Assembly (NCBI GenBank): GCA_028285085.1
Contig: JANQQI010000134.1
Location: 1 to 40,842 of the forward strand
Length of the DNA stretch: 40,842 nucleotides
Direction of reading: 5' to 3'
Source of the DNA: Saprospiraceae bacterium
Lineage (GTDB): Bacteria > Bacteroidota > Bacteroidia > Chitinophagales > Saprospiraceae
In this document: positions 22,952 to 40,539 of the stretch, one piece after another
Layout of the letters: each line of letters begins with the position of its first letter
Position numbering within the stretch: position 1 is the first letter of the stretch
Translations under genes and position numbers: made by a program
The notes under the pieces: model-generated
Database searches by the model: none
Seen by the model: only the letters and a program-made list of their open reading frames with translations
Told to the model about the DNA's origin: nothing

Positions 22952-24760
22952 TTACATTTTGATAATCTTTTGACTGTATTGCTCTTCTCCAAGTTGAAGC
23001 TGTAGGATATACCAACCAAGTGGTAGATCACTCATATCGATTGCTACTTGCGATTGGCCATTCGCCACCTGGCTTTCGATCGTTTGCCCTAAAGCATTGA
23101 TGAGCACGATACGTAATTCGCCTTGATACAGCGATGGGAGTTGAACAAACAATTCGTCTTTAACCGGATTGGGGTAAATCCCAATTTCCGCTAAGAAATT
23201 TTCCTCCTCTGCGCTGGTCGTACAAGCAATCGAAGCATCGAATACCAGGTCAGAAGTGTACGTAGCGGTACAACCCGTCGCCGGATCAAGAACTTCAAGA
23301 GTGTACTCTCCATCCTCGGTGATACACCATACCGATTCCGTTGCCTCAGCAATAGCTACGCCATCCAGATACCACTGGAAGGTAGCATTCGCTGGATAAG
23401 ACGAACCGTCCAGCAAAACTACTAAGTTGCCATCTTGAGTGTAGACTGGATCTTCCGGTACGGCATTAATGATTAGTTCCACTTCACTGGACATGGCCAT
23501 ACAGCCAACTGCATTCGTATGTTGTACGCTGTAAACGCCAGCTTCAGTAGCTTCTAGTTCACTGCCATCTACTCCGGGAATCGGCGTGCCGTTTAACAGC
23601 CAGACATTATTGTTTTCGTAGGTGGTCGTCAGTAAGCTTACTTCACCTTCACAAAATTCACTTAGTGCAGCGTTGATCACCGGTGCATCCGGTAATGGGA
23701 GTACTTCTACGGTATCGGTTGATGAGATGACCTCCACCGGATGGAAAATTTCCAATTCCAGTATAAAATCTGTTCCAGTTAATGTTCCGTCAGAAAGTAA
23801 TGTAAAATTAGTTAATGCACACACGTCGTCCGCCCCATTGATGCCACTGTCCTGGTCAATGACCTTGATTTCGTAATTACCGGGACCTAGCAGTAAATTG
23901 GGGAAAGCCTCAATCGGCGGATTAGTATTCCAAATGGTTTCGGATTCAAATACCAAGCTACCGGAAGGATCACGAATCTCAAAATGCATATCCGGTGCAG
24001 AAGTGAAATCCGGGAAGGTTGGAAAATCATCACAATCACAGTCACTGAGTTCCACTCGCGTTAAGGTATATCCGATGGTGTCGATAGTTGCCTCGTAGCT
24101 CACCACATAGGTGCCAGGAGAATCGTAGGTCTGAGTCGCAGGATTCTCGTCTTGGCTGGTAGAACCATTGCCAAAATCCCAGAAATAGGAATAGCCCATC
24201 TGCCCGTTCGAAGGCACATTATTATCAAAGCCGACACTCAATTCGCCACAACCGACATTATTAGTCATAGTGAATCCCTCGGATATGCTGACCGCCGGAG
24301 CGATGTAAATTTCGATCGGAAAAGAGGTCTCTTGGGTTAAAAAGGCAACGGTAGCTTCTACTGTAACTTCTACTACAAATAAGCCGGCTTCCAGAGGTAA
24401 GCCGCAAAATTTCAAACAACCATCGGTTTCATCCTGAGGATCGTAGCTAGTAGCATTTGCTTCCCAGGAAAGCCCAGCCGGAAGATTACTCAAACTCAGG
24501 ATGGTAATTTCGTTGATATTAAAGCCGGCCGGGACATCGGGGTCGATGGCGTTTACCGGGTCGGTTGTTTTGGGCATCCGAAAGCTGATATCACTGTCGT
24601 AAGCTTGTCCTACGATGCCATCCGCCGCGGTTCCCAGAAAAAGAGTGTCCTCCGGTATACCCGCCGGGACATCAATCACGCAGCCGGGGCAATTCGCCCA
24701 GCTCCAACTCAACAATCCGAAAAAGGCTAAAATTGAAAGTGTAAAACGCTTTTGCTTCAT
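22952..24760 (-). CDS. T9SS-secreted PKD/Ig-like domain protein
   Basis: Start set at ATG 24760, which begins a signal peptide (MKQKRFTLSILAFFGLLSWSWA); the frame stays open upstream but without signal-like residues. The mature protein has an N-terminal module ending in CLKFCGLPLEAG (about residues 50-145), a PKD domain with SYFWDFGNGS near 191-200, and two Ig-like domains (about 380-510). The C-terminal type IX secretion sorting domain starts near residue 530 (IGIYPNPVKDEL) and ends with the usual SQKIIKM. The protein is therefore exported by T9SS and attached to or released from the cell surface. No catalytic motif seen; adhesion or glycan binding is a guess. Its neighbour upstream is a second, shorter T9SS protein sharing the N-terminal module. 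Confidence 0.9.
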   Translation of the reverse strand: MKQKRFTLSILAFFGLLSWSWANCPGCVIDVPAGIPEDTLFLGTAADGIVGQAYDSDISFRMPKTTDPVNAIDPDVPAGFNINEITILSLSNLPAGLSWEANATSYDPQDETDGCLKFCGLPLEAGLFVVEVTVEATVAFLTQETSFPIEIYIAPAVSISEGFTMTNNVGCGELSVGFDNNVPSNGQMGYSYFWDFGNGSTSQDENPATQTYDSPGTYVVSYEATIDTIGYTLTRVELSDCDCDDFPTFPDFTSAPDMHFEIRDPSGSLVFESETIWNTNPPIEAFPNLLLGPGNYEIKVIDQDSGINGADDVCALTNFTLLSDGTLTGTDFILELEIFHPVEVISSTDTVEVLPLPDAPVINAALSEFCEGEVSLLTTTYENNNVWLLNGTPIPGVDGSELEATEAGVYSVQHTNAVGCMAMSSEVELIINAVPEDPVYTQDGNLVVLLDGSSYPANATFQWYLDGVAIAEATESVWCITEDGEYTLEVLDPATGCTATYTSDLVFDASIACTTSAEEENFLAEIGIYPNPVKDELFVQLPSLYQGELRIVLINALGQTIESQVANGQSQVAIDMSDLPLGWYILQLQLGEEQYSQKIIKM

Positions 24761-24891
24761 AATTTGGATTTGAAAGTGAGCAATAAAAATGAGTCTCCCA
24801 GACCACTTCTGGTGGTTGGTTTCTCGGGCGTTCAACAAAAATGTGTGGAATATATGTGAATGGGATGAGTGTAAAGGTAGGGAAATTTTAA

Positions 24892-24930
24892 AAAAAGACA
24901 AGACATGTCAATCAAAACATGCCTTGTCTT
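24892..24930 (-). terminator. Intrinsic terminator after the short T9SS protein gene
   Basis: AAGACAAGACATGT (24895-24908) pairs with ACATGCCTTGTCTT (24917-24930) over 14 positions with one mismatch and an 8-base loop. On the minus strand the stem runs straight into a T-run, so it ends the transcript of the gene at 24992-25807. Confidence 0.85.
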
Positions 24931-24991: not shown

Positions 24992-25807
24992 TTATCGACT
25001 GATAACCATTCGACGTGATACTTGGCCTTTTTGATTCGCCAAGATGTAAGTGTACACGCCATTATCAAGATGGGTGCCGTCGAAATCGAAGTTATTCTCA
25101 CCGGGGAAAATCTGCACTTGACGCTGGTGTACTAATTGGCCGAGCATATCGTAAACCATGAAGTTCAGTGATTCCTGTACCTGAGAATTCAGATTGATCG
25201 TCGTGACCGCACCAAACGGGTTCGGACTATTCGAGATACGAATATTCTCACTAATGTAGTCATCCGTGCTTACAAAGCAAGTAGAAGAACCTTCCTCTTC
25301 AACGGTCAGGATATAATCACCGTCCGCTCCCGGAATAGTTGCTGTCGGAAACTGGATTTGCAGCGGAAATGGTGAACTTGGTGAATAAATCTCGGTATTG
25401 ATGAACAGCTCATATTCACCCGGCGTATTCGCAGATGTTGGTGTACCGAAAATTTCCAGGCAAGCCAGGGTATCCATCGGCGTAAATACGCAACTCTCCG
25501 GGTTGCAAGAATAGCTCATACCTTCAGGTAAACCTTCTACGGCGCCTTCATTGGCCACAACAATTGAATCCAAAAGGATCGTTGTCGTACCGAATTCAAT
25601 CTCTGATGGAATCTTAAAGGTGAAAGTGAAAGAGTAAGGACTATTAATACACGCACTGGTGGTAATACCTCCGTCTGGATTATCGATGCTGGTTGGTGGA
25701 GGATATACACCAATGGCAGAATCGCGATATTGTTCGTCCGGTTCACATTGTGCCTGAACCTGAAAAACACTCAATACAAATAGGGAAAAGAGTAGCAAAT
25801 GCTTCAT
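24992..25807 (-). CDS. T9SS-secreted protein, unknown function
   Basis: Signal peptide MKHLLLFSLFVLSVFQVQAQ, then a ~170-residue beta-rich module with several Cys (YSCNPESC, DTLACLEIFGTP), then a T9SS sorting domain from about residue 192 (ISNSPNPFGAVTTINL) to the basic end VSRRMVISR. It is exported across the outer membrane by T9SS. The middle module aligns by eye with the N-terminal module of the next gene downstream (LP-G-S ... P ... CL---G-P ... G-Y), so the two are likely paralogues. Each has its own transcription: a strong terminator lies between them. It is divergent from a TonB-dependent receptor 379 bases away. Confidence 0.88.
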   Translation of the reverse strand: MKHLLLFSLFVLSVFQVQAQCEPDEQYRDSAIGVYPPPTSIDNPDGGITTSACINSPYSFTFTFKIPSEIEFGTTTILLDSIVVANEGAVEGLPEGMSYSCNPESCVFTPMDTLACLEIFGTPTSANTPGEYELFINTEIYSPSSPFPLQIQFPTATIPGADGDYILTVEEEGSSTCFVSTDDYISENIRISNSPNPFGAVTTINLNSQVQESLNFMVYDMLGQLVHQRQVQIFPGENNFDFDGTHLDNGVYTYILANQKGQVSRRMVISR

Positions 25808-31994: not shown

Positions 31995-32867
31995 TTAGTG
32001 AAATTCGTAGTGAAATAGATTAGCGTAAACCCCATTCGCGCCCCGAATTTCCTGCTCCAGCAACAAACCATCTTCCCGATAACGCAGGTCAATCGTTTCC
32101 ATGGGCTTCCCGCCGCGCAACCGCTCACGTTGTACCAAGCGATTGTTTTGATCGTACACCCAAACATCCGTTTGCTCACTGCCTCTATCCAGGTTTTGAA
32201 TATGATGACGGGTACGATTGCCTTGCTCATCGAAGCTAAACTCATCGACCCGGATGATTTGCTCATCCTCGTTCAAGGTCTCTAGCTTAGTGATTCGGCC
32301 CTGATCATCTCGATAATAGTCGTAAAAGCGCACGGTTTCGTAGCCTTCTTGGTCAACTTCTACACTTTCAATAATATTAGCGTAGTCGTCATACTCGTAT
32401 TCCGCTTTTTCCATTACCTTATCCCCTTCATCATAAATCGCAACTTCGAGGACTTTACCTTCGCTATCGAATTTGCGAAACTCTTTTCCCTCATGATCGC
32501 CGTCTTCATCAGAAATCATGATGGTATTCGTGTTTTCGGCCTCGTCCCAGGCATATTTCTTCAGGGAAAATGAACCATCAGCGTAAGTCACCGTGATTTG
32601 GTCGATTTTACCACTATTATTATAAACGTATTCTAAACGCTGATCAGCCACTTCTTGGCCACTACTAAAGTGCTCCTCGGTCAATACCCGATCTTGGTTA
32701 TCGTAAGATCGGGCCGTTCGGCTTTCCGATTCTCCACTTGGCATATACTGTTCAAGTAAGGTGGTATTACCTTGTGGATCGCGTTCTTCGTATAAATTCT
32801 TGACACCCTCTTGGTCCGTGTCATCGTTAATCAATACTGTCGTAATCGACTTAATCTTGTTACTCAT
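31995..32867 (-). CDS. YD/RHS-repeat protein without signal peptide
   Basis: A 290-residue, acidic protein made of repeated beta-hairpin units of the YD/RHS type: about ten copies, each with a Y-D or F-D turn followed by a strand (for example RSYDNQDRVLTEE, YEYDDYANIIESVE, FSFDEQGNRTRHH, WVYDQNNRLVQRE). No signal peptide, lipobox, membrane helix, protease site or C-terminal toxin is visible, so it is a plain repeat rod and not a full Rhs toxin. Its ATG overlaps the last 8 bases of the secreted deiminase gene, so the two are co-transcribed and probably coupled. Its role is unknown; it converges with lptE. Confidence 0.8.
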   Translation of the reverse strand: MSNKIKSITTVLINDDTDQEGVKNLYEERDPQGNTTLLEQYMPSGESESRTARSYDNQDRVLTEEHFSSGQEVADQRLEYVYNNSGKIDQITVTYADGSFSLKKYAWDEAENTNTIMISDEDGDHEGKEFRKFDSEGKVLEVAIYDEGDKVMEKAEYEYDDYANIIESVEVDQEGYETVRFYDYYRDDQGRITKLETLNEDEQIIRVDEFSFDEQGNRTRHHIQNLDRGSEQTDVWVYDQNNRLVQRERLRGGKPMETIDLRYREDGLLLEQEIRGANGVYANLFHYEFH

Positions 32868-34641
32868 TGTGAGAAATCACCAGTTTTTGAATGTCTTGTC
32901 CTGTTTCGGTCTGCAAGTTAATAAAGTAGGTGCCAGCAGCAAAATCTGCAGCATTAATGAAGTATTTAGACTCGCCTTCCGGAAGCTGTCCCTGGAAAAT
33001 TGTAGTCACATCACGTCCCAAAACATCTTTCAAGGTAATCGTCGCTTCAGCAGCACGCGAGGTTAGCACTGGAATACATGTAATCGCCTTAGCAGGATTC
33101 GGGAAAATAGCCTCCAGGCTCGTCGTCTCGACACTTGGCCCTTCTTCCACGCTCACTAAACAGGCTTCAGCGGTGAAGGTCCAAAAGCCTTCGGGTGCAA
33201 CGATTGGACGCTGGATGACTTTACCGTCATTAGCCGTAGCTTCGATGTAATAGTGAACGTCACTAGCTTCGTCCAAAGGTGGAATATTTGCAGTCCATTC
33301 GTCATTGCCGGCATCACTCATATCAACCGTTTGCCAGGTACTATTAAGGTCGGTCGTGTAATACACCATTGCCGAAGCGATACCGCTCTTGTGGCGAATA
33401 GCGGCGCTCAAAGGCGTATTATCTTCATAGCAAGCTTCTTTTACCTTTTGGTGTGTAATCAACAATGGCTCATCTGCAGCAACTTCCTTAGTGATACAGT
33501 GCAAAGCACCACTCAATGGGATAATGGCATTACAATCAATGCCTACAACATTGTAGCCCGGCATCGCTTCTTCCCAGATGCGCAGTGCCGTCGTATCGTA
33601 TTGCTCTTGGTAGGTAGGTACTAAGATTAGCTTATTGAGAAAGAGTGCGTTAGCGTAAGTTCGATAATCACCGCCCGTCCAAGGATAAGCCGTTCCTTCC
33701 GGTGGCATGGGGATACGAATGAATTCATAAGGCTCGCCGTAAGGATTAGTATAATTATTTAAAATGTACTGAATGTTAGCCTCGATTTGTGGTCCGTCCG
33801 AAATACCCTCCGGGTACTCCCCGATCAAGATGCGCTCTTCGTCCAGCAGCTTCATGTGCATATCAATGTGATGAATCAAATCGTAGGGCAATTCCTGCAT
33901 TTTCACATAACTTTCAATCCCCATAAATTCATACATCAAATTATCTACGTCTTCCGGTGAGTGATTACTATCGCCCCAATCATTAAACGGTCCATTCTCA
34001 TCGTCTACCAATCGAGAAGAAAAACCCTGTCCGATTCCATCTGACATGAAGTTACCACCGGTGTGTACCAAGTCATTCGGCGCTACAGTTGTACAGTAAT
34101 TAGGAACTTGTAGATAATCGGCGATGACTTCGGGAATGGCATCATCCAAAGGACGAGGACGATTATAAATCCAATCCACAAATGCTAATTCATCCACATC
34201 GTTCATATAAACACTATTCGGACCGTAATCACGTACCCAAATACTATTGAAATCATCTTCGATGAAGGTGACGTTAGACGACCAATCTACGCCAGCGCCA
34301 TTCAACTGATTCTTAACCACATTATCATTACTACATACAATGATTACCTCTACTTCCTCACGGGCGTGACGCACAATCTCCGATAAGATGGATGGAAAAC
34401 CAGTCCACGTAATCACTACGGCCTGCATTTCTTCCCACTCTGCCGGCGTACGAATAGCCGCATCGTTGGGTACGTCGTTGATACAAGCAACGCTACGAGC
34501 GTTGAGTGTGGCCATATAAGCCGGCATCAGAGCTTCTTCGCCTTCCGCAAAGCCTCTTGGCAAGGGACGCGATTCGTCTTCAACTTGGGCTTGAAGTCCA
34601 AAGGAAAGTACAAGACAGAAAAATAGTAGAAAGGTTCTCAT
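32860..34641 (-). CDS. T9SS-secreted peptidylarginine/agmatine deiminase-like enzyme (PAD_porph family)
   Basis: Start set at ATG 34641, giving a signal peptide ending in GLQAQ; an upstream start would add charged residues. The catalytic domain (about residues 55-395) has guanidino-group-modifying residues in the family order: Asp138 (WVRDYGP), the GGN block at 195-197, His258 and Asp260 (HHID), Asn331 (TYANALFLN) and nucleophile Cys382 (ALHCIT). An Arg161-Pro-Arg163 pair lies 23-25 residues after Asp138. An Ig-like domain (about 405-500) and a T9SS sorting domain (IFPNPAKAI to the end) follow. This is the layout of Porphyromonas PPAD, which converts protein C-terminal arginine to citrulline. 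An extracellular agmatine deiminase is the alternative. A YD-repeat gene overlaps its 3' end. Confidence 0.9.
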   Translation of the reverse strand: MRTFLLFFCLVLSFGLQAQVEDESRPLPRGFAEGEEALMPAYMATLNARSVACINDVPNDAAIRTPAEWEEMQAVVITWTGFPSILSEIVRHAREEVEVIIVCSNDNVVKNQLNGAGVDWSSNVTFIEDDFNSIWVRDYGPNSVYMNDVDELAFVDWIYNRPRPLDDAIPEVIADYLQVPNYCTTVAPNDLVHTGGNFMSDGIGQGFSSRLVDDENGPFNDWGDSNHSPEDVDNLMYEFMGIESYVKMQELPYDLIHHIDMHMKLLDEERILIGEYPEGISDGPQIEANIQYILNNYTNPYGEPYEFIRIPMPPEGTAYPWTGGDYRTYANALFLNKLILVPTYQEQYDTTALRIWEEAMPGYNVVGIDCNAIIPLSGALHCITKEVAADEPLLITHQKVKEACYEDNTPLSAAIRHKSGIASAMVYYTTDLNSTWQTVDMSDAGNDEWTANIPPLDEASDVHYYIEATANDGKVIQRPIVAPEGFWTFTAEACLVSVEEGPSVETTSLEAIFPNPAKAITCIPVLTSRAAEATITLKDVLGRDVTTIFQGQLPEGESKYFINAADFAAGTYFINLQTETGQDIQKLVISHNE

Positions 34642-34780: not shown

Positions 34781-37105
34781 TTAAAAGCTAAATATCAAAC
34801 CTATACTCGGCAAAATTGGCAACTGGTCGACACGTTGGTTAGTTACACGGTCGATGTAGAAGATATTATCTCGATTATAGGTGTTGGTGATACTAGCAGT
34901 CACATCAAGTGACATATTTTTGGTAAAGGTGAAGGTACGCTTCAAACTCACATCCAGACGGTGATAAACAGGTAATCGGCCTGCATTACGATCCGCAGCA
35001 TAGATGATCCCCAATTCACCATTGTTTTCACCCACTTCGGTAGACAAACCATTTTCAAAATCCTCGCGCTCGTAGAACCCTTGCGTTTGAGTGAAAGGAA
35101 ATCCGGTACCAAAGTTCCAACGTGCACTAGCTTCCCATTCTTTCTTATCACCAAACTGGTGGGTGACCAAAGCATTGATGTTGTGACGACGGTCAAAGAT
35201 GGTAGGATAAACTTGTTCTCCATCATCACGACGTACATAGCCCAGAGAATAAGTGAACCACATATAAGTTCGAGGCAGCACGTATTTAAAGGAGAAATCA
35301 ATACCGTAAGCTTCTCCTGTCTCCGTCATATAATCAGGATCGGTAGCTTCGATTTTATTACGGTTAATAGTGATCAATTGCGTGAAGCCTTTGTAGTAGG
35401 GCTCTACGTTTATAGAGATTTGGTTAGAAAAGTCGTATTCAACTCCAAAAATAGCGTGGTAGGCTTTCTGCAAGCGATGGTCGACACTTTCGCGTGTACC
35501 GGGTTTGAACAAATCCTCTTCCGGTCCGGAGATAAACCCAACGAACAGGTTGACTACATCTTCTTCGTTAACTGTACTGATCAAGTTCTGAGAATACAAT
35601 CCACCGGCTGCTTTGAAGCGCAATTTGTCCGAAGCATTGTATTTGATCCCCAGACGTGGTTCCGGCGAGAAATTCGATTGAGAAGCATAGTATTGCAAGC
35701 GCAAGCTCGGTTCGAGAACCAGCTTGTCCCAAGTCCTCTTGTACTTGAAAAAACCCGCAAGCTCCGTGGTAAAGTCATTTTGTTCAAACCGTAAGCCGAG
35801 GAAGTTATCAAAGCTAAAATCGGTGCTAAAGCCGTTGAGCTCAAACCCATACTGAAACTCGCTATTTCGACCAAAATTGGTGAAATCCAAGCCTACGGTA
35901 AATCCTCGAATACCACTGGTTCGGGGCCGATTATCTTGCTCGGTTAAGGACACTTTGTAATCAGAGAACGTCACCGAACCACCGATGATGGTTGCCGAAG
36001 TTGCGGGGACCAAGGTAAAGTCCGCTCCCATCCCCGTATTGGTCCATTCCAGCTCGGCGAAACCGGGCAAGCTAAATCCATCGCGGAAATTAAAACCAAA
36101 CAGGTTCAGTTTACTACCATTCCCTGATACGAAAGACAGCTTTCCATACAAATCGGTAAATTCAAACGGTAAACCAATATCATCAAGATCGATGATCGAA
36201 TCTGCCGTACCAGCAAAATTAAACTGGGTCGTATCGATAGCGTAGTTGTAGAAAATCTTTGAAGACTCGTTGAGGTAGGAACGCTTTCCAGTTAGGATAA
36301 AAGAGGTACTTCCACCGCCTTCTTCCAATTTCTTGATAGGCCCTTCAAGCAGAACCTTGGATTGAAATGGGTTGGCGGAAAGCACGCCACCAAAGCGTTT
36401 CTTATTTCCCTCGCGGGTTTTGATGTCAACGATAGCTGAAATACGTCCACCGTGCTCGGCGTTGAAGCCCCCAGTGAGTACATCTACACTACGAATGATC
36501 TCCGTTTCAAAAACCGAGAAAAAACCGATGGAGTGGAAAGGATTGTAGATGGTCATCCCATCCAATAGAATCTTATTTTGTACCGGCGATCCCCCTCGAA
36601 TATAGAGTTGTCCCCCTTGGTCACCGGTGGACACAATCCCCGGCAGTACCGGTAGGTATTGAGCGATATCCGGCTCTCCCCCCGTAGACGGTAGGGCTTT
36701 AATTTCTTTTGGTGTGACGCGTAGTGTGGAGATTTTCACCTCCGTTCTGGCCTTTTGTCGCTCCGCAGAGATTTGAACCGTTTCTAATTGGACACTGGAT
36801 TCTACAACGTAAAGACTTTTGTAAGTAATCCCGTTATCCTGTACCCGAGCAGGTACCGCCAACGAATCGTAACCAATGTAGGTCACTACCAGATTGTAGT
36901 TACCGGCCTCGATATCAGACATATCAAAGAAGCCATCAATATTGGTGTTGGTCCCAATCGTAGTCCCCTCTAAACGGACAGTTGCAAAAGCAATTGGTTC
37001 TCCCGTATCTTTATCATAAACATTTCCCCGAATCTTCCCCTGTCCGAAGGCGCTGATCGCAATGATAGTTAGACAGAAGCAGATTAACGCACGTAATTGA
37101 TTCAT
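34781..37105 (-). CDS. TonB-dependent outer-membrane receptor with carboxypeptidase-like domain
   Basis: Signal peptide to SAFGQ, carboxypeptidase-like regulatory sandwich (about 23-100, KIRGNVYDKDTGEPIAFATV), plug domain (about 120-220, LPVLPGIVSTGDQGGQLYIR and ILLDGMTIYNPFH), then a beta-barrel to the C-terminus (SIGLIFSF). Length 774 residues. The plug sequence DxxQYLPVLPGI and the phrase NPFHSIGFFSVF match the group of TonB receptors in Bacteroidota that lack SusD partners; ligand unknown. It lies upstream of the secreted deiminase on the same strand, 139 bases away with a strong hairpin between, so they are neighbours but perhaps not one transcript. A TATATTTG -7 box lies 63 bases upstream. 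Confidence 0.93.
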   Translation of the reverse strand: MNQLRALICFCLTIIAISAFGQGKIRGNVYDKDTGEPIAFATVRLEGTTIGTNTNIDGFFDMSDIEAGNYNLVVTYIGYDSLAVPARVQDNGITYKSLYVVESSVQLETVQISAERQKARTEVKISTLRVTPKEIKALPSTGGEPDIAQYLPVLPGIVSTGDQGGQLYIRGGSPVQNKILLDGMTIYNPFHSIGFFSVFETEIIRSVDVLTGGFNAEHGGRISAIVDIKTREGNKKRFGGVLSANPFQSKVLLEGPIKKLEEGGGSTSFILTGKRSYLNESSKIFYNYAIDTTQFNFAGTADSIIDLDDIGLPFEFTDLYGKLSFVSGNGSKLNLFGFNFRDGFSLPGFAELEWTNTGMGADFTLVPATSATIIGGSVTFSDYKVSLTEQDNRPRTSGIRGFTVGLDFTNFGRNSEFQYGFELNGFSTDFSFDNFLGLRFEQNDFTTELAGFFKYKRTWDKLVLEPSLRLQYYASQSNFSPEPRLGIKYNASDKLRFKAAGGLYSQNLISTVNEEDVVNLFVGFISGPEEDLFKPGTRESVDHRLQKAYHAIFGVEYDFSNQISINVEPYYKGFTQLITINRNKIEATDPDYMTETGEAYGIDFSFKYVLPRTYMWFTYSLGYVRRDDGEQVYPTIFDRRHNINALVTHQFGDKKEWEASARWNFGTGFPFTQTQGFYEREDFENGLSTEVGENNGELGIIYAADRNAGRLPVYHRLDVSLKRTFTFTKNMSLDVTASITNTYNRDNIFYIDRVTNQRVDQLPILPSIGLIFSF

Positions 37106-39423: not shown

Positions 39424-40539
39424 ATGATGCCTTACTACCGATTAACGTACTTTATCCTGTTTATGCTTGTCCTGCTGTCAACTGCCGGGGCACAGACTAT
39501 GCGTGAGAACTTGCAAGAAGAGATCGAAAAGATCATCTTCTACGATACCGAAATTACCAACGAAAAGATTCCGGGTTATACCATCGGTATTATTGTGCAT
39601 GACTCTACCTTTGTTTTCCACTATGGGCACGCAGATTTACAGGGACACGCGTTGACGGATAGCTCACAGTTTGAAATCGGCGGATTGACCAAGGTATTTA
39701 CGGCCACACTCATTGAGCAGTTAGTTCAGGAAGGCATTCTCACTTACGATTTGGTGTTCAATGAATGCTTGCCACAAGAATTTCGGAATCCTCATTTAGC
39801 CCATTTAACGATCGAGCACCTGGTTACCCATCGTTCGGGTTTCCCTAAACTACCCGCCGAATTTGGCCTATACGAAAAGCATCCGGATGATCCATTTATC
39901 GGTTATCCCAAGAAACAATTACTGAAATACTATCAGGAATTCCAGCCCCGAAAAAAACAAAAGGATAAATACTTTTATTCCGGGATTAATTACGCCCTTT
40001 TGGAGATTGCCGTTGAACAAATGTGTCGGGAAAAGTTTGATGAGGTGTTGCGAAAAAAAGTGCTACAGCCGGCTAAACTGGCCGACACGGGTATTGAGTT
40101 GCCTTCCATAAAGCGCGTGGTAGGTATTCACAACGTCAATAAGATGGCTTTACAACCCAGGCATTACGCCTCCTTCGGAGGAGCCTTGGGTTTAAAATCG
40201 AGTATTCGAGATTTATTACAATTTTTAGCCGTAAATTTGGGGCAACAAAGCAATGCGCTTACCCAAATCTGGCAAGCGACCCACCAACCGGTATGTAAAA
40301 CAGAGATGAGCAAGTTCACCTGGAGTGGAAAGGGATGGCACATCGTAAAAAATCGAAAATATTATGATGCGGTAATGCATTCTGGTTCTACCAGTGGCCA
40401 TCGCGCTTACCTGGGTTTTGTCCAGGAATCAAAAACGGCTGTGATCGTCCTCTCTAATTCGGAGCATAGTACTAACGGTCTGGGTTTTTTGATTCTGCGC
40501 TTGATTAATAATAATTGGAAGAAGCCCCGAAAAAAATAA
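39424..40539 (+). CDS. Beta-lactamase-fold protein lacking the catalytic serine
   Basis: Secreted (signal peptide to AGAQ) and of the class C beta-lactamase/PBP-like family by length (371 residues) and motif layout. At the SxxK motif the sequence is Gly87-Leu-Thr-Lys90 within FEIGGLTKVFTA, where relatives have FEIGSxTK: the serine nucleophile is a glycine (codon GGA). The Lys is kept. Motif two is Tyr185-Ser-Gly187 and motif three His319-Ser-Gly321. Loss of the nucleophile suggests a binding protein or a pseudoenzyme, unless a neighbouring Thr89 takes over. It differs from the intact homologue at 443-1558. The frame is complete and uninterrupted. The lipid-kinase gene begins 8 bases downstream and is probably co-transcribed. 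Confidence 0.85.
   Translation: MMPYYRLTYFILFMLVLLSTAGAQTMRENLQEEIEKIIFYDTEITNEKIPGYTIGIIVHDSTFVFHYGHADLQGHALTDSSQFEIGGLTKVFTATLIEQLVQEGILTYDLVFNECLPQEFRNPHLAHLTIEHLVTHRSGFPKLPAEFGLYEKHPDDPFIGYPKKQLLKYYQEFQPRKKQKDKYFYSGINYALLEIAVEQMCREKFDEVLRKKVLQPAKLADTGIELPSIKRVVGIHNVNKMALQPRHYASFGGALGLKSSIRDLLQFLAVNLGQQSNALTQIWQATHQPVCKTEMSKFTWSGKGWHIVKNRKYYDAVMHSGSTSGHRAYLGFVQESKTAVIVLSNSEHSTNGLGFLILRLINNNWKKPRKK

Follow-up and report, generated by a model that had tools for sequence, protein, structure and literature searches.

A predicted exported PPAD-type deiminase of a Saprospiraceae bacterium keeps the carboxylate-binding arginines and lacks the lid tyrosine

PPAD of Porphyromonas gingivalis, a peptidylarginine deiminase exported by the T9SS according to the literature, is the nearest kin of known structure (PDB 4yt9, 4ytb, 4ytg, 5ak7, 5ak8, and 6i0x) of the protein considered here. 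Five of its residues, Asp130, His236, Asp238, Asn297, and Cys351, are described as catalytic (PMC4487231, PMC4893104), and the substrate carboxylate is contacted by Arg152, Arg154, and Tyr233 (PMC4487231, PMC4893104). Tyr233 bonds the carboxylate and would clash with a substrate extended beyond its C-terminal arginine (PMC4487231). Position 239 is occupied by a gatekeeper cysteine; the Ala and Ser mutants retain about 8% of the activity, and the Glu mutant has none (PMC4487231). As to the arginines, R152 was found indispensable in P. gingivalis cultures, where R154A retained about 30% of the activity (PMC4487231); in the case of purified truncated PPAD acting on BAEE, R152A lowered the activity and R154A equaled the wild type, and on Gly-Arg both mutants were still active (PMC4893104). 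Thus, judging by the mutant data from cultures and purified enzyme reported in these two papers, the arginine pair is important but not absolute. Concerning the origin of PPAD, Goulas et al. hypothesized that it arose from a single-domain agmatine deiminase via horizontal transfer and fusion (PMC4487231). PADs of bacterial origin have also been described in centipede venom, where the five catalytic residues are retained and two specificity residues are altered (PMC7864903).

The window, i.e., the whole stretch of 40,842 nucleotides from a Saprospiraceae bacterium that was analyzed, bears a gene whose product, by its sequence, layout, and place in the tree, is of the PPAD type. The features of the gene and its immediate neighbors are as follows:

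32860..34641, minus strand: PPAD-type deiminase gene, 593 amino acids; one intact open reading frame from the ATG at 34641 to the stop at 32860, stop included
34588..34641, minus strand: signal-peptide-like N-terminus, approximately residues 1–18, judged by eye from the sequence
33484..34452, minus strand: PAD_porph catalytic domain, residues 64–386 (Pfam, 1.4e-38)
34228..34230, minus strand: Asp138, matching PPAD Asp130 (guanidinium binding), by alignment and relatives
34153..34161, minus strand: Arg161-Pro-Arg163, matching PPAD Arg152-Pro-Arg154 (carboxylate grip), by alignment; both arginines in 114 of 114 relatives
33877..33879, minus strand: Leu255 at the position of PPAD Tyr233 (lid of the Michaelis loop), by alignment; Tyr in 0 of 114 relatives
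33862..33870, minus strand: His258-Ile-Asp260, matching PPAD His236-Val-Asp238, by alignment and relatives
33649..33651, minus strand: Asn331, matching PPAD Asn297, by alignment and relatives
33496..33498, minus strand: Cys382, matching PPAD Cys351 (nucleophile), by alignment and relatives
33172..33456, minus strand: region aligning with the PPAD Ig-like domain, approximately residues 396–490, by alignment with the PPAD chain; the profile alignment to 4yt9 runs up to profile position 494
32875..33108, minus strand: T9SS C-terminal sorting domain, residues 512–589 (Pfam Por_Secre_tail, 7.9e-10; TIGR04183, 2.1e-8)
34781..37105, minus strand: TonB-dependent receptor gene, upstream on the same strand, with plug and CarboxypepD_reg-like domains
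31995..32867, minus strand: RHS-repeat-like gene sharing its first 8 bases with the stop end of the deiminase gene; the RHS_repeat match is under the Pfam cut-off

When the single sequence was searched against solved structures, the five best hits were all PPAD (E from 1e-38 to 2e-37), the best non-PPAD chain following at 4e-18; with a 53-row family profile, the corresponding values were 2e-94 and 3e-39. PPAD is represented in all comparisons solely by its PDB chain, and a P. gingivalis genome was not recognized among the 128 and 98 genomes searched. In the best alignment, the PPAD crystal chain, its Ig-like domain included, is matched by residues 60–490 of the query, and the catalytic domains are 34% identical; a Pfam search with the window protein alone gave no match to an Ig family. 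Closer to PPAD stand the proteins of eight genomes (G022, G104, G112, G123, G486, G488, G491, and G495), four of which were measured and show 41–44% identity to PPAD and 34–35% to the window protein. Each of these PPAD-near proteins carries Arg-Pro-Arg, as does the window protein, and the catalytic columns are kept wherever the sequence piece covers them (L211 and L212 are two pieces from one genome).

The alignment pairs Trp135, Asp138, Arg161, Arg163, His258, Asp260, Asn331, and Cys382 with PPAD Trp127, Asp130, Arg152, Arg154, His236, Asp238, Asn297, and Cys351, respectively. In this respect the preliminary description of the locus has held up well. The order of signal peptide, deiminase, Ig-like region, and T9SS domain that it proposed agrees with the PAD_porph match, the region aligned to the PPAD Ig-like domain, and the Por_Secre_tail match, the signal-like N-terminus being recognized by eye. 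Its catalytic set (Asp138, His258-x-Asp260, Asn331, and Cys382) was placed at the correct positions and lies in register with that of PPAD, whose residue numbers as given there coincide with those in PMC4487231 and PMC4893104, and its comparison of Arg161-Pro-Arg163 with Arg152/Arg154 is justified by their falling into the same alignment columns.

The conservation of these residues was followed in 114 close relatives with 111 distinct catalytic domains among them. Named genome contigs supplied 80 of these relatives, the best of 559; related genomes supplied a second set of 14, and a sample of the phylum a third of 20. All eight key residues occur together in every one (80/80, 14/14, and 20/20 by set). 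Because HHIDMHMK was among the motifs used to select the first set, that set is biased in the loop around His258; the 20 phylum-sample rows, picked without those motifs, agree with it. The presence of the eight-residue set in 114 of 114 relatives with 111 distinct catalytic domains confirms that it exceeds what chance would give. It also bears on whether the protein might be a catalytically dead structural component of the surface, for which no evidence was found: with the five catalytic residues kept in all 114 relatives, such a role is extremely improbable. Outside the close relatives, the full set is found in four of four PPAD-near proteins, in none of five intermediate proteins, and in none of 30 AguA-type proteins. 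The five catalytic residues themselves persist without exception in the five intermediates and the 30 AguA-type proteins, the intermediates keeping only the second arginine of the pair and the AguA-type rows having Ala or Ser plus an aromatic residue at the two columns in 30 of 30 cases. A third group of PAD_porph proteins (L152–L156 and L186–L190, from five genomes), with open frames of approximately 690–790 amino acids, has only the second arginine and bears Tyr-Tyr in place of the preceding Tyr-Asn.

Taken together, the sequence data suggest that the protein is probably a secreted PPAD-type peptidylarginine deiminase acting on C-terminal, and perhaps also internal, arginines. In such a mechanism, the deiminase would be exported, either to the cell surface or out of the cell; Arg161 and Arg163 would hold the C-terminal carboxylate (and the preceding carbonyl) of a peptide ending in arginine, Asp138 and Asp260 would hold the guanidinium, and Cys382 would attack it, yielding ammonia and a C-terminal citrulline. 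As a substrate, a C-terminal arginine appears the likeliest, and agmatine unlikely.

The weight given to the arginine pair in the preliminary description has to be divided. As a mark separating the protein from agmatine deiminases it stands, both arginines being found together in none of the 30 AguA-type proteins; as proof of a peptide substrate the pair alone does not suffice, since arginine deiminases are described as binding the carboxylate of free arginine with the same two residues (PMC4487231). An extracellular enzyme converting free L-arginine to citrulline and ammonia would share this feature, and action on free L-arginine is named by Montgomery et al. among the features of PPAD itself (PMC4893104). 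Such a function is nevertheless improbable, given that PPAD is the nearest solved kin and that Arg163 is conserved throughout the 114 relatives: the corresponding residue of PPAD contacts the carbonyl of the preceding peptide unit and reportedly favors peptides over free arginine (PMC4487231). No arginine deiminase model appeared among the Pfam and NCBIfam matches to the window protein up to E 0.001.

An exported agmatine deiminase should also be considered, since AguA proteins belong to the same Pfam family, PAD_porph, and share the five catalytic residues (30/30). The NCBIfam agmatine deiminase models do match the window protein, although the scores of 68 and 63.8 bits fall far short of the respective cut-offs of 483 and 381.8, and the window genome contains a single PAD_porph gene, the one described here. 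AguA-type proteins differ from the window protein in the arginine-pair columns, in their mostly shorter open frames, and in forming a clade of their own (100/100, with 16 of the 30 rows taken into the tree). This first tree, built from 81 rows of the catalytic domain with 54 of the 114 relatives, joined the window family and the PPAD clade with support of 96/96, the PPAD clade itself having 100/99. The end branch of PPAD was flagged as long by the program, and joins of this kind may be false; the separation of the window family as one clade from the PPAD clade was weak (51/9). A second tree of 41 rows, with the arginine-pair and loop columns removed (21 of the 114 relatives, three of the four PPAD-near proteins, and 10 of the 30 AguA-type proteins), again had the group bearing the arginine pair on one side of a branch (98/97), this time with no long-branch flag. 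Thus, the tree check proposed earlier places the protein outside the agmatine deiminases and with PPAD (96/96 and 98/97), and the opposite placement, named there as refuting, did not arise. An AU test with the window row forced beside the AguA rows gave p-AU 0.052, i.e., no formal rejection, a value to which little weight is attached because the unrooted test also lets AguA hang on the window's own branch. A search of the window genome for AguB gave nothing over the cut-off and three weak matches. With model scores far under cut-off, different residues in the arginine-pair columns, separate positions in the trees, and AguB absent above the cut-off, agmatine deiminase was rejected as the best reading, and an exported form of it is very unlikely.

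Two features of the active site were missed in the preliminary description: the absence of the lid tyrosine and a methionine gatekeeper. The position of PPAD Tyr233 is taken by Leu255 in the window protein; among the 114 relatives, Tyr never occurs there, and Gly, Ala, Val, and Leu are the commonest residues. In the 20 phylum-sample rows chosen independently of the motifs, position 255 is Gly in 12, Gln in three, Val in three, Glu in one, and Pro in one. The gatekeeper Cys239 corresponds to Met261 in the window protein and to Met in all 114 relatives, including 20 of 20 motif-independent rows. Two places before the lid position, Tyr253 is Tyr in 67/80, 12/14, and 20/20 rows of the three sets and Phe, Trp, or His in the others. 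The lid and gatekeeper replacements, together with the placement on a separate branch, distinguish the window protein from PPAD. Both replacements weigh against the favored function, as does the smaller effect of the arginine-pair mutations in purified PPAD. In the PPAD-near proteins, the lid residue is Ala, Ser, or, in a single case (L210), Tyr, showing that the trait varies; since Tyr233 is missing also from six of the seven PPAD-near genomes in which the loop is covered, it is treated here as a variable trait that does not define the PPAD type. It follows from the loss of this third carboxylate contact in the window protein and all 114 relatives that the strict C-terminal specificity of PPAD is not simply transferable to them. 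Access to the site may be wider than in PPAD, so that some internal arginines might be used.

Carried further, this consideration leads to a relaxed peptidylarginine deiminase that citrullinates internal arginines as well, since it, like human PAD2 and PAD4, has no lid tyrosine. The animal enzymes, set beside the window protein by description only, are presented in PMC4487231 as genetically unrelated to PPAD and calcium-dependent, though with a similar Cys-His-Asn triad, two arginines at the substrate main chain, and no Tyr at the lid; in the human PADs the lid residue is Ser or Thr, a feature that Goulas et al. tie to room for extended substrates (PMC4487231). The uniform lack of Tyr at position 255 among the relatives fits such an activity. 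Set against this, the carboxylate is gripped mainly by Arg161 and Arg163, which all 114 relatives retain, the aromatic residue at position 253 could act as the lid instead, and the tyrosine of L210 shows the lid to be changeable, so that a relaxed specificity is rather doubtful. The most far-reaching version, in which a widespread clade of exported open-lid enzymes citrullinates both internal and C-terminal arginines, extracellular protein citrullination is common in Bacteroidota outside the mouth, and the tyrosine lid and strict C-terminal specificity of PPAD are a special case, is likewise tentative and, on balance, unlikely. What can be seen is a family present in many Bacteroidota in which the substrate-gripping arginines are kept and the tyrosine thought to shut PPAD to internal arginines is missing. 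If these enzymes do citrullinate peptides, extracellular citrullination would become an ordinary trait of the phylum, the ancestry of PPAD would become traceable, and natural variants devoid of Tyr233 would provide a direct test of the choice between C-terminal and internal arginines.

As for the export of the PPAD-type deiminase, the window genome encodes the T9SS components SprA/Sov, PorU, and PorU2, and Por_Secre_tail is found in 49 of 53 aligned family members. With a T9SS sorting domain, a T9SS genome, and a signal-like N-terminus, the protein looks exported. Two further proteins with T9SS sorting domains are encoded in the window, at 22952–24901 and 24992–25807, both on the minus strand, one of them having PKD-like matches. 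In contrast to the P. gingivalis system, no gingipain that could supply C-terminal arginines was found when the window genome was searched for the C25 family, which counts against the favored function. Four C25 matches were obtained, three of them over the cut-off, namely PorU2 and two contig-end pieces matching PorU; the fourth match is below the cut-off. As to the physiological role, one might guess at the scavenging of peptides or nitrogen or at the modification of surface proteins.

In the phylum sample, 21 of 395 genomes, bearing nine family codes, have a close relative of the window protein (E 3e-88 or better, the next matches reaching only 6e-44). Of the 29 related genomes, 16 contain one, with E-values no weaker than 5e-143. 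Among the 19 genomes bearing the family that the PAD_porph search also covered, including the window genome, a second PAD_porph match is present in 11 and a single match in eight. These second proteins (best E 1e-104 or better) have AguA-like scores, and thus the family does not just represent AguA in these genomes. Saprospir- or Lewinella- occurs in the record titles of 44 of the 80 named relatives, and 78 of the 80 titles start with MAG; from such labels, an environmental origin of the relatives may be inferred. One relative (L035) comes from a MAG carrying the label Thermoanaerobaculia, where its contig, only 4.8 kb long, may have been binned in error. That such genes extend past the oral pathogens has in part been stated before, Cummings et al. 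having already reported a broader distribution of pPAD genes; among the papers listed in literature searches to which most subscription journals were closed, none describes the present family in its title or the beginning of its abstract.

A TonB-dependent receptor gene lies upstream of the deiminase gene in 18 of the 100 loci with 3,000 bases of room upstream, eight of the 100 being PPAD-near or intermediate loci and one paired contig (L002, L193) being counted twice among the 18. The receptor homologs in the 18 paired loci are 52–70% identical (best piece), and the pairing is clustered on a quick tree, requiring four changes over 88 rows without PPAD, of which 18, including the window, are paired. 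The receptor beside the deiminase in a part of the family hints, as a guess, at uptake of the product. Homologs of the RHS-like gene occur in seven of 94 loci, two of them with identical sequence. A search for a universal gene partner gave none, and no gene cluster is found in more than 24 of 110 loci. Genes resembling those of ECF sigma factors and FecR, identified by reading the sequences, lie upstream in 15 loci each (L010, L014, L025, L031, L033, and others), nearly always on the opposite strand. Farther along the window, at 39424–40539 on the plus strand, a protein of the Beta-lactamase family (Pfam) is encoded, which scores far under the curated cut-offs of the 25 NCBIfam models shown of 45.
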